From assembly GCA_947503625.1 (NCBI GenBank), contig CANNEK010000002.1, positions 372,001-436,000 on the forward strand: a stretch of DNA of 64,000 nt, given 5' to 3'. The stretch's first letter is position 1. Each line of letters starts with the position of its first letter. The notes under the pieces were generated by a model. It searched no databases, was not told the DNA's origin, and was given only the letters and a program-made list of their open reading frames with translations. Origin of the DNA: an uncultured Kordiimonas sp. (lineage in GTDB: Bacteria > Pseudomonadota > Alphaproteobacteria > Sphingomonadales > Kordiimonadaceae). The position numbers and the translations under genes were made by a program. This document shows, piece after piece, positions 4,088 to 57,527 of this stretch.

Positions 4088-4540
4088 TCAGGTGGGTGTA
4101 ATAAGGGCGTGCTTCACGAAGATACCCACCTTGCCCTCGCCAATTCTGTGAGAAAGAAACGGCGTCAGATAAGCACGGACGATGTCCGGGTTGATGGGTT
4201 TGTTAACATCGAACCGCTGACGGGAAAGAATAGTCAACGCACCAAGAAAATCAGATCGAATTTGCGGCATCCGCTCCCTGATCATTTCGGAGTTCTTCTG
4301 GTCCTCGACGACAAGGGTGAGTGTAATGGCTGCTTTGCCAATCAGACGACCGCGCTCGAACATTGACAAGTTGAATGGATCCATCTCAATGGCAAGCTTT
4401 CCCTCGTCCGGCATAGCGTTGTCTTTGGCAGACGCATGGAGCGAAAGAGGTTGCCCGACGAAAACGAACATAATCATCAGCACCCGGGCCCAACTCCGAG
4501 CTAACCGCCAGATTCCAGAAATCACGTTACGTCTGTCCAT
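4088..4540 (-). CDS. FliL-like membrane-anchored protein (150 aa)
   Basis: A short N-terminal positive stretch and one hydrophobic segment (VLMIMFVFVGQPLSLHA) would export or anchor the protein. The remaining ~115 residues resemble the periplasmic domain of FliL-type flagellar proteins: an acidic M-D-P-F strand, GRLIGKAAITLTLVVE, then a helix with MPQIRSDFLGAL and a C-terminal strand GKVGIFVKHALITPT. FliL proteins surround the MotAB stator. The resemblance is by pattern only and no other flagellar structural gene is near, though a FlaEY-like gene lies upstream on the same strand. The start is uncertain: ATG at 4540 gives the neatest signal segment, ATG 4552 and GTG 4585 are in frame, and none has a good ribosome site. 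Confidence 0.5.
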   Translation of the reverse strand: MDRRNVISGIWRLARSWARVLMIMFVFVGQPLSLHASAKDNAMPDEGKLAIEMDPFNLSMFERGRLIGKAAITLTLVVEDQKNSEMIRERMPQIRSDFLGALTILSRQRFDVNKPINPDIVRAYLTPFLSHRIGEGKVGIFVKHALITPT

Positions 4541-4661
4541 GTGTAATGTCATCACTATCAATATATTTCGGGGTTGAGCCGCCACTATTAGATAGCAGCA
4601 CTGTTATCAGGAAGCATACTGCGAAGTCATAAACAGGAAATTAATGGTCACGCAAAGGCAT

Positions 4662-4699
4662 TGATGCAAAATGCATCATTCACGTCGCATAATGCATCA
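4662..4699. promoter_or_regulatory. Tandem palindromic box, candidate enhancer (UAS)
   Basis: A perfect 7-3-7 inverted repeat, TGATGCA AAA TGCATCA, occupies 4662-4678. A second, imperfect copy at 4683-4699 repeats the right arm exactly (AATGCATCA). The centres are 21 bp apart, two helical turns, so dimers would bind the same face of the DNA. The pair lies about 160 bp upstream of the inferred start of the small RNA at ~4831, the usual distance for sigma-54 enhancer sites. It is also about 120 bp upstream of the divergent FliL-like gene. The binding protein is unknown. Confidence 0.5.
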
Positions 4700-4764
4700 A
4701 AATAATGTCTCTTTTTGCGACAATTCCAAGTCTCCAACATAGTATAAAGCAACAACGTTATTAT

Positions 4765-4791
4765 AAGTGTTTAATATATAACACTTTTTTT
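4765..4791. terminator. Weak AT-rich hairpin with T run
   Basis: A 7-bp inverted repeat, AAGTGTT / AACACTT around an eight-base loop, is followed on the plus strand by a run of seven Ts. The stem is AT-rich, so its strength as a terminator is doubtful. It would shield the promoter at 4806 from read-through. Confidence 0.35.
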
Positions 4792-4805: not shown

Positions 4806-4821
4806 TGGCACAAGCCTTGTA
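4806..4821 (+). promoter_or_regulatory. Sigma-54 (-24/-12) promoter candidate
   Basis: The sequence TGGCACAAGCCTTGTA matches the sigma-54 consensus TGGCACG-N4-TTGCA at nearly every conserved position, with the correct ten-base spacing between the GG and the second G. The one important deviation is T for C in the -12 GC. Transcription should begin about 12 bases past the -12 element, near 4831, just before the structured RNA described below. Confidence 0.5.
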
Positions 4822-4830
4822 ACTATAGGA

Positions 4831-4960
4831 GTACCTCTCGAGCAGGGGTGCGGGAATAGGTTTAAATTTACTCGACCCCCAATCGTGCACCTATTCCCGC
4901 GAACCCTGCCCGTAGATATTTCCAAAAAAGAGCGGCTCTCAACGAGCTGCTCTTTTTTTT
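4831..4960 (+). ncRNA. Predicted structured small RNA, ~130 nt
   Basis: No protein in this stretch looks real. From about 4831 the plus strand would give: a short 5' leader rich in CCUCUC; a long hairpin with stems GCAGGG/CCCTGC (4842-4847 with 4904-4909) and GCGGGAATAGG/CCTATTCCCGC (4850-4860 with 4890-4900); then a terminator hairpin. The 29-base loop can form a small CGA/UCG sub-hairpin presenting CCCCC, and both this and the leader could pair with Shine-Dalgarno sequences. A sigma-54-like promoter lies directly upstream. It matches no RNA family that I recognise (not 6S, SRP or tmRNA). Promoter, fold and terminator are read from sequence; expression and target binding are inference. Confidence 0.55.
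4922..4960. terminator. Strong, probably bidirectional terminator
   Basis: AAAAAAGAGCGGCTC and GAGCTGCTCTTTTTT form a near-perfect 15-bp stem (one G-U pair) around the loop TCAAC, with a T run on each strand. On the minus strand it lies 27 bases past the stop of the FlaEY-like gene. On the plus strand it ends the predicted small RNA. Confidence 0.9.
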
Positions 4961-4986
4961 GTCATGAAAAACCTGAAAAGCAGTAT

Positions 4987-7900
4987 TTATATAAACAAAC
5001 TAAGGGTTGGAGAGCTTGCACCACTTTGAAGGCGCGCAAGGCCGGTCTGGAAGTTGGCAATTTGTGACAAAGTGCGAGAAGAGGGTGTTCCGCTTTGTAC
5101 TCGGGAATCGTTCAGTAATTGTTGTCTTATTGGATCAAAACGGGTCGAACGAAATGCGCGCTGTGTGGTTGAGATCGCGGTATCGAGCAATCCCAAAACA
5201 TATTTTGCATTGGCTTTGTCGCCAAGATTGAGGGCGCCGTTCAACTTGAGGCCAAAAACACCGCCGAGATCCTCTTCCGGCGGGATATCTTCGTCATCCC
5301 CCAAATCAAAAACTTCGTTCTTGGGCAAGAGCTTGCCGGGCTCCAGACCAATACGATCAAGCAGGTCACGACCGCCCGTACCAGGAATAAGATCAATGGA
5401 AACTCCATCGTCCAGCGTACTTATTTTCAGCTTTTGGCCTTCTGCTGTGGTTGCAACGTCGGCGTCAATCTTGCCAAACGCCGCGACACGCAACTTGCGC
5501 TTGATATCATCGAAGGTGTCGTTTTCTTCCAACTCGATTTTGGTGCGGCTACCACCATCGACACGCAGATAGAAGAAGTCGCCAATTCGCGCTGTCGTCT
5601 GCGTTTCAAGGTCACGCGTTTCATCGGGAGCAATCAATCCGGTTGGCAGCCCGAGTGTTTCCAGCACCGAATCGCCCTGATTGGTGAACGCAACACCGCC
5701 CACAGAAGAGCGCGCAAGACCTTCGCCGTATTGTTCGGTGTCTTCCAGTGCACCCGATGTGCCATCCAGTCTTGCAATAAACCCGTCTGTTGCGCCGCGG
5801 CCTGTTTCACCGGAAAGAGTTCCAGTGGTAGAGCCGGCAGCATATACTTTGCCGCCCTGAACCGTTAGGTCGCTGACACCGTCTGTACCGCTGGTCGAAA
5901 GGTATGTTGTAAAATCGGCGGAAAGGGTCGAAGAGCCCGAGAAACTGAAGCCGCTTACAAACCCTTCCAGCCCACCATTTGCAGACTGGTTAACCGTCGC
6001 CGCACCCGATGCATCCAGAGAACTGTTCGCGGTAACACCAGAGAGATAAATTTTGCCGTTTGCAGTATCGACGGCAATGCCGGAAATCTCGCCACCATCA
6101 CCAAGCGACCCTAAACTGACGCTCGCATTTTGTGTTGAAAGATCCGAACCGGATAGCCGCACAACCGACGCAGACCCTGCTTCTTCAAGAGCAACAATCA
6201 AATTGTCATCACTGTCAACAGCCAGCGCTTTGATTACGTCATCACCCGACGCACCGAAAACGTTCGATGATGTCAGGCTACCATCAGCACCACTCAGCTT
6301 CAGCACCAGAGCGTCTGATGCGCTGGTTGCACCGGACGCGAAACTGATCGGTGCAGTTGCACCCCCAACATAAATATCGTCGCTCGAATCTATAGCGATT
6401 GCATAGGCTTTGGTGTCTGCGAATGTATCCAGTTGATATCGGAACACTTCATCGCCGCGTTTGCTTATTTTTACGACAAAAGCATCATTACCACCGTCGA
6501 TAACATCGTCATTCGATAGCGCGCTTTCGGTTGCACCGGCAATAATCACGTTATCCTGACTATCCACCTTGATATCAAAAGCCTCAGCCGATTCCGCAAC
6601 ACCCAGCAGCCGTGAAAACACCACATTGCCCTCGGTATCAAACTTGGTCAGGAACACGTCCTGGGTTTCCGCAACGTTTAATTGATGGCCAAAACTGCCC
6701 GCAGATGTACCCACGACATAGATGCCGCCATCGCTATCAACTGCAACCCGGTTACCGTTAGTGTCGGCATTGACTCTGTTTTCGCTATCAATGTTGGTAA
6801 TGGAGGACGTGTTGTCTTCCTCATCAGACGAACTTGTTGTTTCATCGTCACCCACCACATCTGCAACAGCGTCTGACAGGAATTTATCTCGCAACGAGGC
6901 GATTTTGGGGTCGAGATCGTCATCTTCCTGTTCGGCGACCAACCCTTTGATTTCAGTCGCTTCATAATCAATAGCCGCAAACGAGGTCGTATCATCCAGT
7001 GTTATGGTGCTGTCGATGCTGTTAAATTCGCTGATGCGGCTTGTAACTGCGAAACTGTCATCGAGCTGGCTGACGGCAGAGACAGCATATAAAGTCGGTG
7101 CAGCAACCGCGGCAGATAGTGTCACTTCTTCCGTAATCGTGCCTTCAATTTTAAGGCCGTACTGGCCGGTATCGCTATTGCGGGCGATATTGACCCGGGT
7201 CAGATGTTTTGCCGAAAAGTTGCCGGATGTATCGAAAGTGGACGATGACCCCGGATATCCCGCTCCTTCGTCCGCACTAAACTCGAACCCAAGCAACGTA
7301 GCTTCTGTCGCGGTATCCTCAGGTGTATAGACGAGCTTTCCAGCGGTGATATCAGCAACCGCAATTTCCTGACCATTCGTGACGTCAACGCCGTCCAGTT
7401 GCAAACCCGTTGCAGTGGTGTCAATTCTGACCGTCTGCAAGGTTTCGTCAGTGCTGTTAAAGTCTGCCGCCGTCAACGTCTTGGCAACGGGAATTTTCAA
7501 CGCTTCAATCGTTGAATTGATGTGAGCCACCACGTTGTTCAATGTCAGGTCACCGGAAATCCCGCTCAAGTCCACCGCAATACTATCTGTTTCACCACTT
7601 TTCTCGATGGAAACAGTGAAGACCTCCGTACCGGTCAGGCCATCAATGACCGTATCCGGGCTGGAGACAACATACGAACCATTGGTCTCTGTCTCATTCT
7701 TGCCCGTGCGTGTACTGGCTTCGGTATTATATTCCTTGTCACCCAGAAAAATGTCCAGTTTATCAAGCTCTGTAGACGACAAATAGTCACGCACTTCCGC
7801 AAGCCCGGACCGGAACTGTTCGTCAAGACGCTCAAGGGATGAATCAAGCGTTGCATCCTCCGACGCATATTCAGCCAGCACTCTCAGGTTCGTCAGCGCA

Positions 7901-8256
7901 TTGAATAAAACAAATGTCGCCTTCTGGTCTGCGTCATCAGCGACGGCCTCCAGGTTGGGGTCTTCCAGATCAATAAAACTGGTTAACTCGCGAACTTCGC
8001 GAATCTGCTCATTAAGCGTTTGAGGCTCTTCGGGAATTTGCCAGGGCGGTATGACGGCCGGACCGTCATTGCGGCCAAACGAAAACTGGGCGGCCCGCTG
8101 GTCCGCAGACAAGCTGTTGATACTGATCCGGGCGAGTTGCGCTTGCGCATCAAGTGCAATCAAGGACGAACTGATGCCCACAATCTGGGGGCGGGTAGAT
8201 TGCTCTTGAGCAATCCCAAACAAGCCTCCTGAATTTTGTGGTCCGAAGAACGCCAT
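4987..8256 (-). CDS. FlaEY-like large protein with beta-propeller repeats (1089 aa)
   Basis: No signal peptide is visible. Residues 1-200 include short helices (LNEQIREVRELTSFIDLEDPNLEAV, LDSSLERLDEQFRSGLAEVRDYL). About 200-440 is Thr/Asp-rich beta structure. About 500-880 carries repeats of the SBBP propeller type, recurring as AxDIKVDSQDNVIIAGAT, AYAIAIDSSDDIYVGGAT, IKALAVDSDDNLIVA and ISGIAVDTANGKIYLSGVT. The last ~200 residues (FFYLRVDGG, DDIKRKLRVAAFG, then LKISTLDDGVSIDL) recall flagellin/hook IN motifs and the flagellin C-terminus. This layout recalls the FlaEY regulatory/flagellin-modification proteins of Caulobacter and relatives; that name is my inference. The chosen start (MAFFGPQ, 8256) is the first with sensible upstream bases; an in-frame start 16 codons earlier is less likely. 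Confidence 0.6.
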   Translation of the reverse strand: MAFFGPQNSGGLFGIAQEQSTRPQIVGISSSLIALDAQAQLARISINSLSADQRAAQFSFGRNDGPAVIPPWQIPEEPQTLNEQIREVRELTSFIDLEDPNLEAVADDADQKATFVLFNALTNLRVLAEYASEDATLDSSLERLDEQFRSGLAEVRDYLSSTELDKLDIFLGDKEYNTEASTRTGKNETETNGSYVVSSPDTVIDGLTGTEVFTVSIEKSGETDSIAVDLSGISGDLTLNNVVAHINSTIEALKIPVAKTLTAADFNSTDETLQTVRIDTTATGLQLDGVDVTNGQEIAVADITAGKLVYTPEDTATEATLLGFEFSADEGAGYPGSSSTFDTSGNFSAKHLTRVNIARNSDTGQYGLKIEGTITEEVTLSAAVAAPTLYAVSAVSQLDDSFAVTSRISEFNSIDSTITLDDTTSFAAIDYEATEIKGLVAEQEDDDLDPKIASLRDKFLSDAVADVVGDDETTSSSDEEDNTSSITNIDSENRVNADTNGNRVAVDSDGGIYVVGTSAGSFGHQLNVAETQDVFLTKFDTEGNVVFSRLLGVAESAEAFDIKVDSQDNVIIAGATESALSNDDVIDGGNDAFVVKISKRGDEVFRYQLDTFADTKAYAIAIDSSDDIYVGGATAPISFASGATSASDALVLKLSGADGSLTSSNVFGASGDDVIKALAVDSDDNLIVALEEAGSASVVRLSGSDLSTQNASVSLGSLGDGGEISGIAVDTANGKIYLSGVTANSSLDASGAATVNQSANGGLEGFVSGFSFSGSSTLSADFTTYLSTSGTDGVSDLTVQGGKVYAAGSTTGTLSGETGRGATDGFIARLDGTSGALEDTEQYGEGLARSSVGGVAFTNQGDSVLETLGLPTGLIAPDETRDLETQTTARIGDFFYLRVDGGSRTKIELEENDTFDDIKRKLRVAAFGKIDADVATTAEGQKLKISTLDDGVSIDLIPGTGGRDLLDRIGLEPGKLLPKNEVFDLGDDEDIPPEEDLGGVFGLKLNGALNLGDKANAKYVLGLLDTAISTTQRAFRSTRFDPIRQQLLNDSRVQSGTPSSRTLSQIANFQTGLARLQSGASSPTLSLFI

Positions 8257-8302
8257 TTTTCTCGTTTTCCCAGTCGTATTCCGCCGAAGAAACTCAATAC
8301 AC

Positions 8303-8374
8303 ACTCGGCAATTTTTGCCCGCCCGGCATTAAGTGCCGAGCCAGGAGGCCAAACCACCGCTGGCGACTCGGCAA
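8303..8374. promoter_or_regulatory. Three CTCGGCA boxes in a divergent promoter region
   Basis: ACTCGGCAA occurs at 8303-8311 and 8366-8374, and its inverse TGCCGAG at 8334-8340. The centres are about 30 and 33 bp apart, close to three helical turns. They lie between the divergent FlaEY-like gene and yggT, 45-120 bp upstream of the former. CGGCAA-type boxes recall the ftr elements bound by FlbD at Caulobacter flagellar promoters; I could not confirm the match. Confidence 0.35.
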
Positions 8375-10774: not shown

Positions 10775-12421
10775 ATGATCATCCGCTATCTCTTTGCTGT
10801 TTGTCTTCTCTGCTTCGCCTCCACTGCCCAGGCAGTGTCCCTGAGTTCAAACATCGGGGATGAGCGGCAATCTTACGCGGCAAACCCGGGCAACACAGAA
10901 ACGGACCCAAGCTGGCAGCCCTATAGCCCTTTCCTGAAAACAGACGGTGCCCACTTCTGGTATTCGCACAAAATCTCTGTCTATCACGAGCCGGGAGAAA
11001 CGGTCAGCAACCCGTTAACGCTGTCAGTTCGCCTGAACGGCGTGTTCGATTTCTACTGGGATGGTGCTTTAATCGGTTCCAACAAATATCTGGGCAAATC
11101 AGCGAGCCAGTATAGCCGTGTCCATATCCCGGTATCTGGCCTCTCCGAAGGTGAGCATCAGCTGAAAATACATATTGTTGCCCTTGGAATGCGCGCAGGC
11201 GACAGTAGTGATCTACGGGTTGCGGTCGCCGCGGTAAAATCGGATTTTTTCGGTGTCCACCCGACCGTGGTCAGCACGTTTTTTATCGCCACTGCATCCT
11301 TGTTTCTTGCAGGGTATCTGACAGTCACTCTGCGCACCGGACGGCAGCGCCCGGGCAACGTGGCAACCATTTTCTTCAGTATTGCCATAGCAATGGTTGT
11401 GCTTCTGGAAGATGGACGGTTTCTGTTCAAGTACCCCTATGGCTGGCAATCCTTTCTGGATATGCTTCAGCCTCCATTTGCAGTCATGTTTTTCATATTG
11501 TTGACGTGGTTGGTTCTGACCCGCATCAGCTACCCCAACCGACTGGCATGGATGGTGGTCCTTCCTGTAAGTCTGGCGATTTCACTGATTGAGACTGGAG
11601 GCATCGAGCACCATATTCGGCTGTTTTTTACACTGTCGCTGTTCCTTTTGGCGCTGTCGTCGTACGGTTGGTACCGAGGCTATGGTAACGCTAGGCTTTT
11701 TGCCATTGGCTTCGCACTGGCTATAGTTGCGTTGCTGCTCGACTTGGACAAAGGGCATCTTTTCCTTATTGTGATAACAGTTTTATTTGCCACCGATCTT
11801 GCCATTGATATGCGTCAGCAGGGCAAAAATGCCATCCGCCATTTGCTGATGTCGGAACGACTGCGTTCTGACCTGATAAAGCGCAACGTCCAGCCTCATT
11901 TTCTGATGAATTCACTGACCGCTCTCATGGAATGGGTCGAAACAAGCCCCGACGAAGCGGTCAACTTCATCGACGGCCTAGCGCAGGAATTTCGTATCCT
12001 GGATGAATTTTCCGAAAGGCGAAGCGTCAGTCTCAAACAAGAACTGGCACTCTGCAATATTCATCTAACCCTTATGGGGCAGCGACTGGCAAGCTGCTTC
12101 AGGCTGGAAGCCAGCAGCGTTGACACAGACCAACAGGTACCCCCGGCCCTGTTTCACACATTAATTGAAAATGCTTTTAGCCACAATGACTACCGGGCCT
12201 TTGAAGCAACCTTCGTTCTGACACAGGAAACAACTGCTAGCGGTCGCATACTTCGACTATCTGTCCCTGTTAAAAACCCACATAGCAGCAGCCATAGCGC
12301 GGGCCTAGGCACACGTTACATCGAAGCGCGGCTTGAGGAATTCTGCGGAAAAGCTTTTAGCTTCCAATCCGAAATGATAGGGTCGACCTGGGTTTCTACA
12401 ATCACTTTAAACAGGCATTAA
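10775..12421 (+). CDS. LytS-type sensor histidine kinase with 7TM sensor (548 aa)
   Basis: A signal peptide (to AQAV) precedes an extracytoplasmic jelly-roll-like domain (about 25-160; SVRLNGVFDFYWDGALIGSN) of the 7TMR-DISM type. Seven or so membrane segments follow (about 165-345). The cytoplasmic part starts with SERLRSDLIKRNVQPHFLMNSL, the His_kinase motif in which the His is phosphorylated. The N box is VPPALFHTLIENAFSHND. The ATP-lid region is thin: a clear DxGxG is absent and only AGLGTRYIEARLEEF remains. This is seen in some LytS relatives, so activity is likely but not certain. The response regulator gene follows 11 bases later. Confidence 0.88.
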   Translation: MIIRYLFAVCLLCFASTAQAVSLSSNIGDERQSYAANPGNTETDPSWQPYSPFLKTDGAHFWYSHKISVYHEPGETVSNPLTLSVRLNGVFDFYWDGALIGSNKYLGKSASQYSRVHIPVSGLSEGEHQLKIHIVALGMRAGDSSDLRVAVAAVKSDFFGVHPTVVSTFFIATASLFLAGYLTVTLRTGRQRPGNVATIFFSIAIAMVVLLEDGRFLFKYPYGWQSFLDMLQPPFAVMFFILLTWLVLTRISYPNRLAWMVVLPVSLAISLIETGGIEHHIRLFFTLSLFLLALSSYGWYRGYGNARLFAIGFALAIVALLLDLDKGHLFLIVITVLFATDLAIDMRQQGKNAIRHLLMSERLRSDLIKRNVQPHFLMNSLTALMEWVETSPDEAVNFIDGLAQEFRILDEFSERRSVSLKQELALCNIHLTLMGQRLASCFRLEASSVDTDQQVPPALFHTLIENAFSHNDYRAFEATFVLTQETTASGRILRLSVPVKNPHSSSHSAGLGTRYIEARLEEFCGKAFSFQSEMIGSTWVSTITLNRH

Positions 12422-12432
12422 TTTGATCCGTC

Positions 12433-13158
12433 ATGTCTTTTAACTTGCTCATCGTTGAGGACGAACCGCTTGTTGCCAAAAGGCTGTCCAGACTATCAAC
12501 CGACATTCTCGACGACCAGATTTCTGCTCTGCACCTGGCACCGGATTTAGATGCTGCTCGCAACCTTGTCTCCAGCAACCCCATCGACCTTATTCTATTG
12601 GACCTCAATCTGGTGGGCAGCGACGGATTCGAGCTTTTGAAGGAGTTTACCTCCAAAGCAGCACACACTATTGTTGTATCCGCAGAAACGACACGCGCGC
12701 TTGAAGCATTCGAGTTTGGGGTACTGGACTTCGTCCCAAAACCTTTCACACGCGACCGATTGGCCAAAGCGCTGGCACGCTTCTGGAAACCTGCATTCGC
12801 CAATGAACCTGCTACAAGACAAATTGCATTTGAAACCGGAACAGGTTTCGATGTCGTCAGTACAATCGATATTCTTTATTTTAAAGGTGCTGACAAATAT
12901 TCTGAAGCTATGCTCAAAAGCGGTGCCGTGAAGTTTCACACGAAATCACTGAACCGACTGGAAGACATTCTGTCCGCAAACTTCGTTCGCAGTCATAAAT
13001 CCTATTTAGTACAACGTGGTGCCATTAAGTCGCTACGTTCGCTCGAAGGTAGCCGATACGAAATGGATCTTGTTGATGGCAATTCGCTGCCAATTGGCCG
13101 GACACGGGTTGACCATGTCCGGCACGCCATATCTGCGTGGGGAGGGCAGAACGGCTAG
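12433..13158 (+). CDS. LytTR-family response regulator (241 aa)
   Basis: The receiver domain (1-120) has the acidic pair EDE, the phospho-acceptor Asp in LILLDLNLVGSDG, the Ser of VVSAET and the Lys of VPKPF. The C-terminal half (about 135-235) is a LytTR DNA-binding domain: ILYFKGADKYSEAML, FHTKSLNRLEDIL, FVRSHKSYLVQ, LPIGRTRV. Such regulators bind short direct repeats upstream of exported-protein or metabolic genes. It forms a two-component pair with the kinase just upstream. Its stop overlaps that of the facing outer-membrane protein gene (CTAG at 13155-13158), which is a possible target. Confidence 0.93.
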   Translation: MSFNLLIVEDEPLVAKRLSRLSTDILDDQISALHLAPDLDAARNLVSSNPIDLILLDLNLVGSDGFELLKEFTSKAAHTIVVSAETTRALEAFEFGVLDFVPKPFTRDRLAKALARFWKPAFANEPATRQIAFETGTGFDVVSTIDILYFKGADKYSEAMLKSGAVKFHTKSLNRLEDILSANFVRSHKSYLVQRGAIKSLRSLEGSRYEMDLVDGNSLPIGRTRVDHVRHAISAWGGQNG

Positions 13159-57450: not shown

Positions 57451-57527
57451 TGGTGATCCCGGCTGGATTCGAACCAGCGGCCCCCAGATTAGGAATCTGG
57501 TGCTCTATCCAACTGAGCTACGGGACC
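57451..57527 (-). tRNA. tRNA-Arg (anticodon CCT)
   Basis: The minus strand folds as a full 77-nt cloverleaf: acceptor GGTCCCG / CGGGATC (one G-U), D-arm with AGCTCAGTTGGATAGAGC, anticodon stem CCAGA/TCTGG with loop TTCCTAA (anticodon CCT), and T-arm CTGGTTCGAATCCAG. The 3' CCA is encoded. It reads AGG codons. An unusual palindrome overlaps its 5' end. Confidence 0.96.

Follow-up and report, generated by a model that had tools for sequence, protein, structure and literature searches.

What does the intergenic stretch at positions 4806 to 4960 of this Kordiimonas DNA encode, and what controls it? The window, by which we mean the whole 64-kb stretch analyzed, lies on contig C2 of a 4.07-Mb genome (G000). 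An earlier note on its letters had proposed a structured small RNA of a new sigma-54-dependent class, set beside flagellar-type genes. We consider it quite likely that the locus encodes a LuxO/sigma-54-driven trans-acting regulatory RNA with Qrr-like wiring, in which a C-rich loop is the acting part. Five parts of this explanation are supported by sequence, namely the promoter, the upstream boxes, the structure, the conservation, and the co-occurrence with LuxO-like genes.

A small RNA gene and its neighbors

The promoter claimed in the earlier note, a sigma-54 type −24/−12 element TGGCAC-N5-TTGTA, is present at 4806..4821 on the plus strand, where it is supported by both sequence and family comparison. 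TGGCAC-N5-TTG occurs a single time in the 64 kb with both strands counted. All 29 family loci have a −24/−12 match ahead of the loop; because the search imposed TGGYAY-N5-TTG, the fixed letters of this pattern carry no independent weight. The −12 element is mostly TTGT in the family (23/29) as opposed to the usual TTGC. From fold and conservation we place the small RNA gene at 4831..4960 on the plus strand with a predicted start at G4831, and G or A occupies the predicted start position in 24 of the 29 family loci.

The predicted fold of 4831-4965 has an energy of −59.5 kcal/mol, compared with a mean of −30.5 for 200 dinucleotide shuffles (z −8.7), none of which was as low. The long hairpin proposed at 4842-4909 is there, although it extends slightly further, over 4836..4916 on the plus strand, with an inner stem of 4849-4861 paired with 4889-4901. 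It carries the loop ACUCGACCCCCAAUCG (4870..4885, plus strand), identified as invariant from alignment and fold, in which a predicted mini-stem at 4873-4875/4883-4885 (CGA/UCG) encloses CCCCCAA. The CCCCC run at 4876-4880 sits in a loop, as had been noticed, here an apical one closed by CGA/UCG; the leader motif CCUCUC (4834-4839), put forward as another site able to pair with Shine-Dalgarno sequences, fares worse, with four of its six bases paired in the fold. The strong terminator seen at 4924..4960 on the plus strand was found again as a hairpin at 4924-4958 running into T residues. It is absent from the list produced by a simple terminator scan of the window, and a crude scan found a terminator-like element in 23 of the 29 family loci.

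A protein-coding reading was rejected because the flank of the loop varies among genomes by lengths that are not multiples of three, in agreement with the earlier judgment that no real protein frame exists here. The statement that the element belongs to no RNA family also holds for Rfam 15, in which no family matches the small RNA at the gathering score. The sole match at that score in the window is a tRNA gene at 57454-57527 on the minus strand.

Both neighboring genes are on the minus strand. The upstream gene (4088..4585) encodes a protein of 165 residues that is weakly FliL-like by profile match (E 3.5e-4, 20.4 bits against a cut-off of 131), and the downstream gene (4987..8304) encodes a beta-propeller protein of 1105 residues recognized by its SBBP repeats. 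The label FliL-like, given to the first at the outset, is therefore weakly upheld; the second had been called FlaEY-like, and SBBP beta-propeller repeats alone matched. Relatives of the upstream and downstream proteins flank the RNA in 28 and 29 of the 29 family loci, respectively, and both neighbors recur in all five non-family loci for which longer flanks were available. The proposed flagellar link of the RNA is weak, given that the neighbors are weakly flagellar and lie on the opposite strand, and that the boxes upstream of the promoter match a published LuxO site. Elsewhere in the window, a gene for a histidine kinase with a 7TM region adjoins one for a LytTR response regulator (10775-13158, plus strand).

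Conservation within and beyond the Kordiimonadaceae

The RNA gene occupies one syntenic place in all 29 Kordiimonadaceae (f1) genomes. A DNA search of 98 relatives matched every one of the 29, with best E values from 5e-93 to 1.3e-3, and the 13-nt core CGACCCCCAATCG was found in all of them at 37 places, comprising the 29 genes and eight extra copies, one of which forms a tandem with the gene of G006. Sixteen nucleotides of the loop are identical across all 29 loci. Covariation of the stems, which the earlier note had asked for, is evident in the inner stem, where 96.9% of cells are paired, 8 of 18 pairs show double changes, and none of 500 shuffles did as well on any of five measures, with the alignment's own consensus as the structure tested and statistics that ignore relatedness. 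The promoter, stem pairs, and terminator were also examined for conservation together, the lack of which would have spoken against an RNA; the outcome favors one, with the promoter in 29 and the terminator in 23 of the 29 loci. Overall, comparison of these sequences gives strong support to a small RNA that is structured and has a sigma-54-type promoter and a terminator of its own.

Matches to the loop pattern in 28 stretches carry the names Kordiimonas, Eilatimonas, and Pseudokordiimonas, or come from metagenome-assembled genomes labeled Kordiimonadaceae, Kordiimonadales, Sphingomonadales, or Alphaproteobacteria, with one labeled Acidobacteria; on the strength of these names, f1 is equated with the Kordiimonadaceae. 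The Acidobacteria match (L087) was rejected as a chance loop match without synteny, and one stretch that matched the terminator part alone (L028) is excluded from all counts. In one family genome (G006), two loop-bearing hairpins lie in tandem (L004, 1565 and 1665) with one terminator after both.

Three further families of the order (f2, f7, and f8) also have the RNA, in 16 genomes together. Model R1, built from the 29 loci and run over 396 genomes of the order, recovered all 29 and further loci in other families; 18 order stretches were read from its matches and 13 were kept, the other five (L169 and L175-L178) being taken for chance matches for want of boxes, promoter, or core. Model R3, built from these 13, matched four of 30 chosen genomes, three of them new. 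At 15 of the 16 non-family loci, the conserved CCUCU of the RNA is preceded at 27-28 nt by TGGCAY-N5-NTGC (some with N), and the same 15 have at least one upstream box of 8/10 letters, with box and −24/−12 element at a fixed distance from the 5′ end of the RNA; the exception is G035. Support for the structure is weaker here than in the family, with 81.9% of cells paired, a figure that 1 of 500 shuffles reached, and 57.6% for helix 3, and the number of pair types outside the family is not above that of the shuffles (421/500). A joint alignment of the families (A2) gave a poor automatic structure of 7 pairs because the stem is shifted between families. Model R2, applied to 385 genomes of the class with stricter filters, gave E ≤ 0.05 in 31 genomes including its own, and nothing convincing emerged from the loci read: nine of the 30 others (L180-L188) were set aside as chance, with no box of at least nine letters and a −24/−12-like match in L187 alone.

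Upstream boxes and LuxO-like activators

In the family, phased palindromes resembling TTGCA-N3-TGCAA are placed about 98, 121, and 140 nt ahead of the −24 element. This consensus is the LuxO site of Vibrio qrr promoters in excerpts of PMC11443567. In the window, putative box 1, ATGCAAAATGCAT (4664..4676), and box 2, TCGCATAATGCAT (4685..4697), each match 8 of its 10 letters, and the third position (4708..4720), found at about −98 from the −24 element in other loci, is degenerate with 6/10. A box of at least 8/10 occurs within 250 nt in 27 of the 29 family loci (30 dinucleotide shuffles, mean 8.7, maximum 12) and one of at least 9/10 in 21 (mean 1.1, maximum 3); the 250 nt upstream in L022 and L026 hold no box of at least eight letters. 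In the span from −160 to −80 relative to the −24 element, 16 loci have three or more 8-letter boxes, seven have two, four have one, and two have none. Between boxes and promoter, positions 4764..4776 read on the other strand form an IHF-like site with 8 of 9 letters of an IHF consensus, and 19 of the 29 loci reach 8/9 (single-base shuffles, mean 3.7, maximum 8).

Among 12 matches to enhancer-binding proteins in this genome, nine are clear. FlbD, NtrC, NtrX, and PspF pass curated cut-offs, and three further activators are less clear. Two activators score best with the Vibrio LuxO model, at 548 and 608 bits against a cut-off of 800, below which all matches to this model in the 98 genomes fall, and the solved structure nearest to both is that of LuxO. 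The critical recognition-helix residues of Vibrio cholerae LuxO are given in excerpts of PMC11407668 as Ser423, Ile425, Tyr426, Arg427, Lys428, and Leu429. Aligned by eye, the helices PSTLYRKL and PSTIYRKK of the two proteins keep nearly all of these residues, the exceptions being Ile425 to Leu in one and Leu429 to Lys in the other. Of the two, the protein encoded at G000:C2:485150-486532 matches LuxO better. The gene for the second lies in stretch L109 (7320-11579, minus strand; within G000:C2:326000-345000) directly beside genes for an H-NOX (HNOB) protein and a kinase of GAF-HisKA-HATPase-REC-Hpt architecture, a row that is a possible one-operon pathway from nitric oxide to LuxO. An exosortase-type gene is also found in L109.

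At a threshold of E ≤ 1e-125, a LuxO-like gene is present in all 29 family genomes and in 21 of the 69 others. Within the latter set it occurs in 10 of 11 genomes with the RNA versus 11 of the 58 in which no RNA was found (Fisher p ~1e-5, by a test that ignores relatedness and with the sensitive model R3 covering part of the 58); in the 11 LuxO-positive genomes of the second group, the R1 and R3 searches did not find the RNA. The luxO-like genes of the family themselves have an upstream box in 11 of 14 loci read (L113-L130; 200 single-base shuffles, mean 0.7, maximum 4), which suggests LuxO autoregulation there. The luxO-like genes of other families have a box in none of five. Among four other activator genes in G000, one has an 8-letter box. 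The sole RNA genome found without a LuxO-like gene at threshold is G035, which is listed as complete. Its RNA (L163 / L190) keeps place and fold, and the boxes and −24/−12 element are missing. This genome offers a natural test of the wiring, with the RNA in place while the LuxO-like gene, boxes, and promoter are gone.

The activation side, through LuxO and sigma-54, is well supported as a prediction from these comparisons. A LuxO-like response regulator would bind two or three palindromic boxes that lie about 110-165 nt ahead of the start. Bending of the DNA, to which IHF may contribute, would bring the regulator to the sigma-54 polymerase at −24/−12, and a transcript of about 130 nt would be made down to the terminator. 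The presence of FlbD in the genome and the weak FliL-likeness of the upstream neighbor would also fit an RNA driven by another sigma-54 activator, such as flagellar FlbD, as a member of the flagellar regulon. We regard this as improbable, however, since the boxes fit the LuxO consensus, the RNA co-occurs with LuxO-like genes, and in G035 the LuxO-like gene, boxes, and promoter are absent together. Less probable still, to the point that we give it very little weight, is a cis element acting as the leader or 3′ end of an adjoining gene. The best sub-threshold Rfam match of the RNA is Thr_leader (31.6 of 55 bits), a likeness that reflects two hairpins and a T run, but the minus-strand orientation of both neighbors and the RNA's own promoter and terminator argue against such an element.

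The loop, its candidate targets, and known systems

The mini-stem of the loop, invariant in the family, covaries elsewhere (UCCG/CGGA, UUCG/CGAA, and UCUG/CAGA). The same loop is borne on unrelated stems in six stretches read from other genomes (L031, L032, L033, L034, L035, and L037), none with a −24/−12 match, and three extra copies checked for LuxO boxes had none. Terminator-like hairpins follow the copies in L031 and L032 as judged by eye. The occurrence of the loop on unrelated stems suggests that it is the active part of the RNA. Pairing by the C-rich loop is plausible from its letters: the RNA would act by base-pairing, with a rigid stem presenting ACCCCCAA to the G-rich UUGGGGGU at ribosome-binding sites, and would lower translation of the target mRNAs.

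Four genomes were compared for TTGGGGGT a short way ahead of ATG, and each has more such sites than sites of the reversed pattern, a crude control (114 versus 47 in total). The 114 are the sites of TTGGGGGT-N1-15-ATG with overlapping ATGs counted apart; 112 loci were read, and 47 open frames of at least 60 residues lie behind them, duplicates included. In this genome they include a luxI-like synthase, a chemoreceptor, and a BLUF protein; in the three other genomes, RTX-repeat proteins lie behind such a site. The pattern RTTGGGGGTYG has 32 sites in the four genomes; among 30 loci fetched for it, the RNA loop itself accounts for six, and most of the rest are intragenic. The luxI-like autoinducer synthase gene (L109 16920-17534, plus strand; G000:C2 ~342919) lies about 8 kb from the LuxO-like gene of L109 and has UUGGGGGU at its ribosome-binding site. 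Its relatives give 33 matches in 25 of the 29 family genomes, and among 30 loci read, GGGGG is near the assumed start in four, and the UUGGGGGU site occurs solely in the locus from this genome. A PD40 protein has matches in nine of the 29 genomes, with TTGGGGGT in G000 and G003 and TTGGGGTG in the G014 leader, in a comparison that covers part of the loci. The luxO leaders show no consistent complementarity to the loop, and no target conserved through the family was found among the luxI, PD40, and luxO leaders and the pattern sites. Real pairing sites and chance sites are indistinguishable by these pattern counts.

Two further readings share the LuxO and sigma-54 control. The bolder proposes an alphaproteobacterial LuxO/sigma-54/small RNA circuit with an RNA unrelated to Qrr; either the circuit would have arisen twice, or LuxO would have been coupled to a new RNA. 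The loop would be a seed module that satellite RNAs with different promoters also carry, and silencing of a luxI-type synthase in this species would link Vibrio-type and LuxI-type quorum systems. We find this whole doubtful, and less likely because the recounted luxI and other target leaders add no support. In the other, the RNA would be a decoy whose C-rich loop titrates a protein or another RNA without mRNA pairing. A loop invariant over 16 nt and carried on unrelated stems, the tandem hairpins before a single terminator in G006, and the lack of a conserved mRNA target found in our searches all speak for a decoy, whereas the excess of TTGGGGGT before ATG over its crude reversed control is what pairing at ribosome-binding sites predicts, and we judge a decoy fairly unlikely. 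We favor the trans-acting regulatory RNA, which by analogy with Qrr may be the output of a phosphorelay reading cell density or a different cue, for example nitric oxide.

Qrr RNAs have several stem-loops, and Rfam contains a Qrr family. No Qrr entry is among the one gathering-score match in the window or the 34 matches listed to E 10, and the Kordiimonas RNA is apparently not homologous to Qrr by sequence. It also differs in having one long hairpin and a terminator, one main copy, a C-rich seed, an alphaproteobacterial host, and a location away from luxO (about 108 kb apart on contig C2). The resemblance lies in the intergenic position with a terminator, the LuxO-like activator, the −24/−12 promoter, and the TTGCA-N3-TGCAA boxes at a distance similar to that in Vibrionaceae as given in excerpts of PMC11443567. 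As in Qrr genes, a sigma-54 −24/−12 promoter is found at the 29 family loci and 15 of the 16 others, and TTGCA-W3-TGCAA boxes, predicted by letter match, at 27 of 29 and 15 of 16. The proposal of a new class of sigma-54-dependent RNA therefore stands in that no Rfam family matches, but because the LuxO-driven Qrr RNAs are its closest kind, we regard the locus as a variant of a known circuit and not a wholly new class.

Small RNAs with C-rich loops that pair with Shine-Dalgarno sequences exist, such as RNAIII of Staphylococcus aureus. The unpaired C run in the apical loop, with its predicted pairing, is similar to these, although they differ in regulation and organism. The row containing the second LuxO-like gene, with H-NOX and a hybrid kinase carrying receiver and Hpt domains, resembles the H-NOX/HqsK/LuxU/LuxO nitric-oxide branch of Vibrio harveyi described in PMC3759921, but differs in that all genes are adjacent in one apparent operon. 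In excerpts of the open-access literature, LuxO-driven small RNAs are described for Vibrionaceae only (PMC10162802, PMC11443567, and PMC11407668), and those of PMC4896933 and PMC12559287 cite Qrr solely as a Vibrio system. Named culturable strains exist for testing the Kordiimonas circuit. Were a LuxO-type RNA with an unrelated sequence to operate in another class, it would show reuse of the wiring and not of the RNA.
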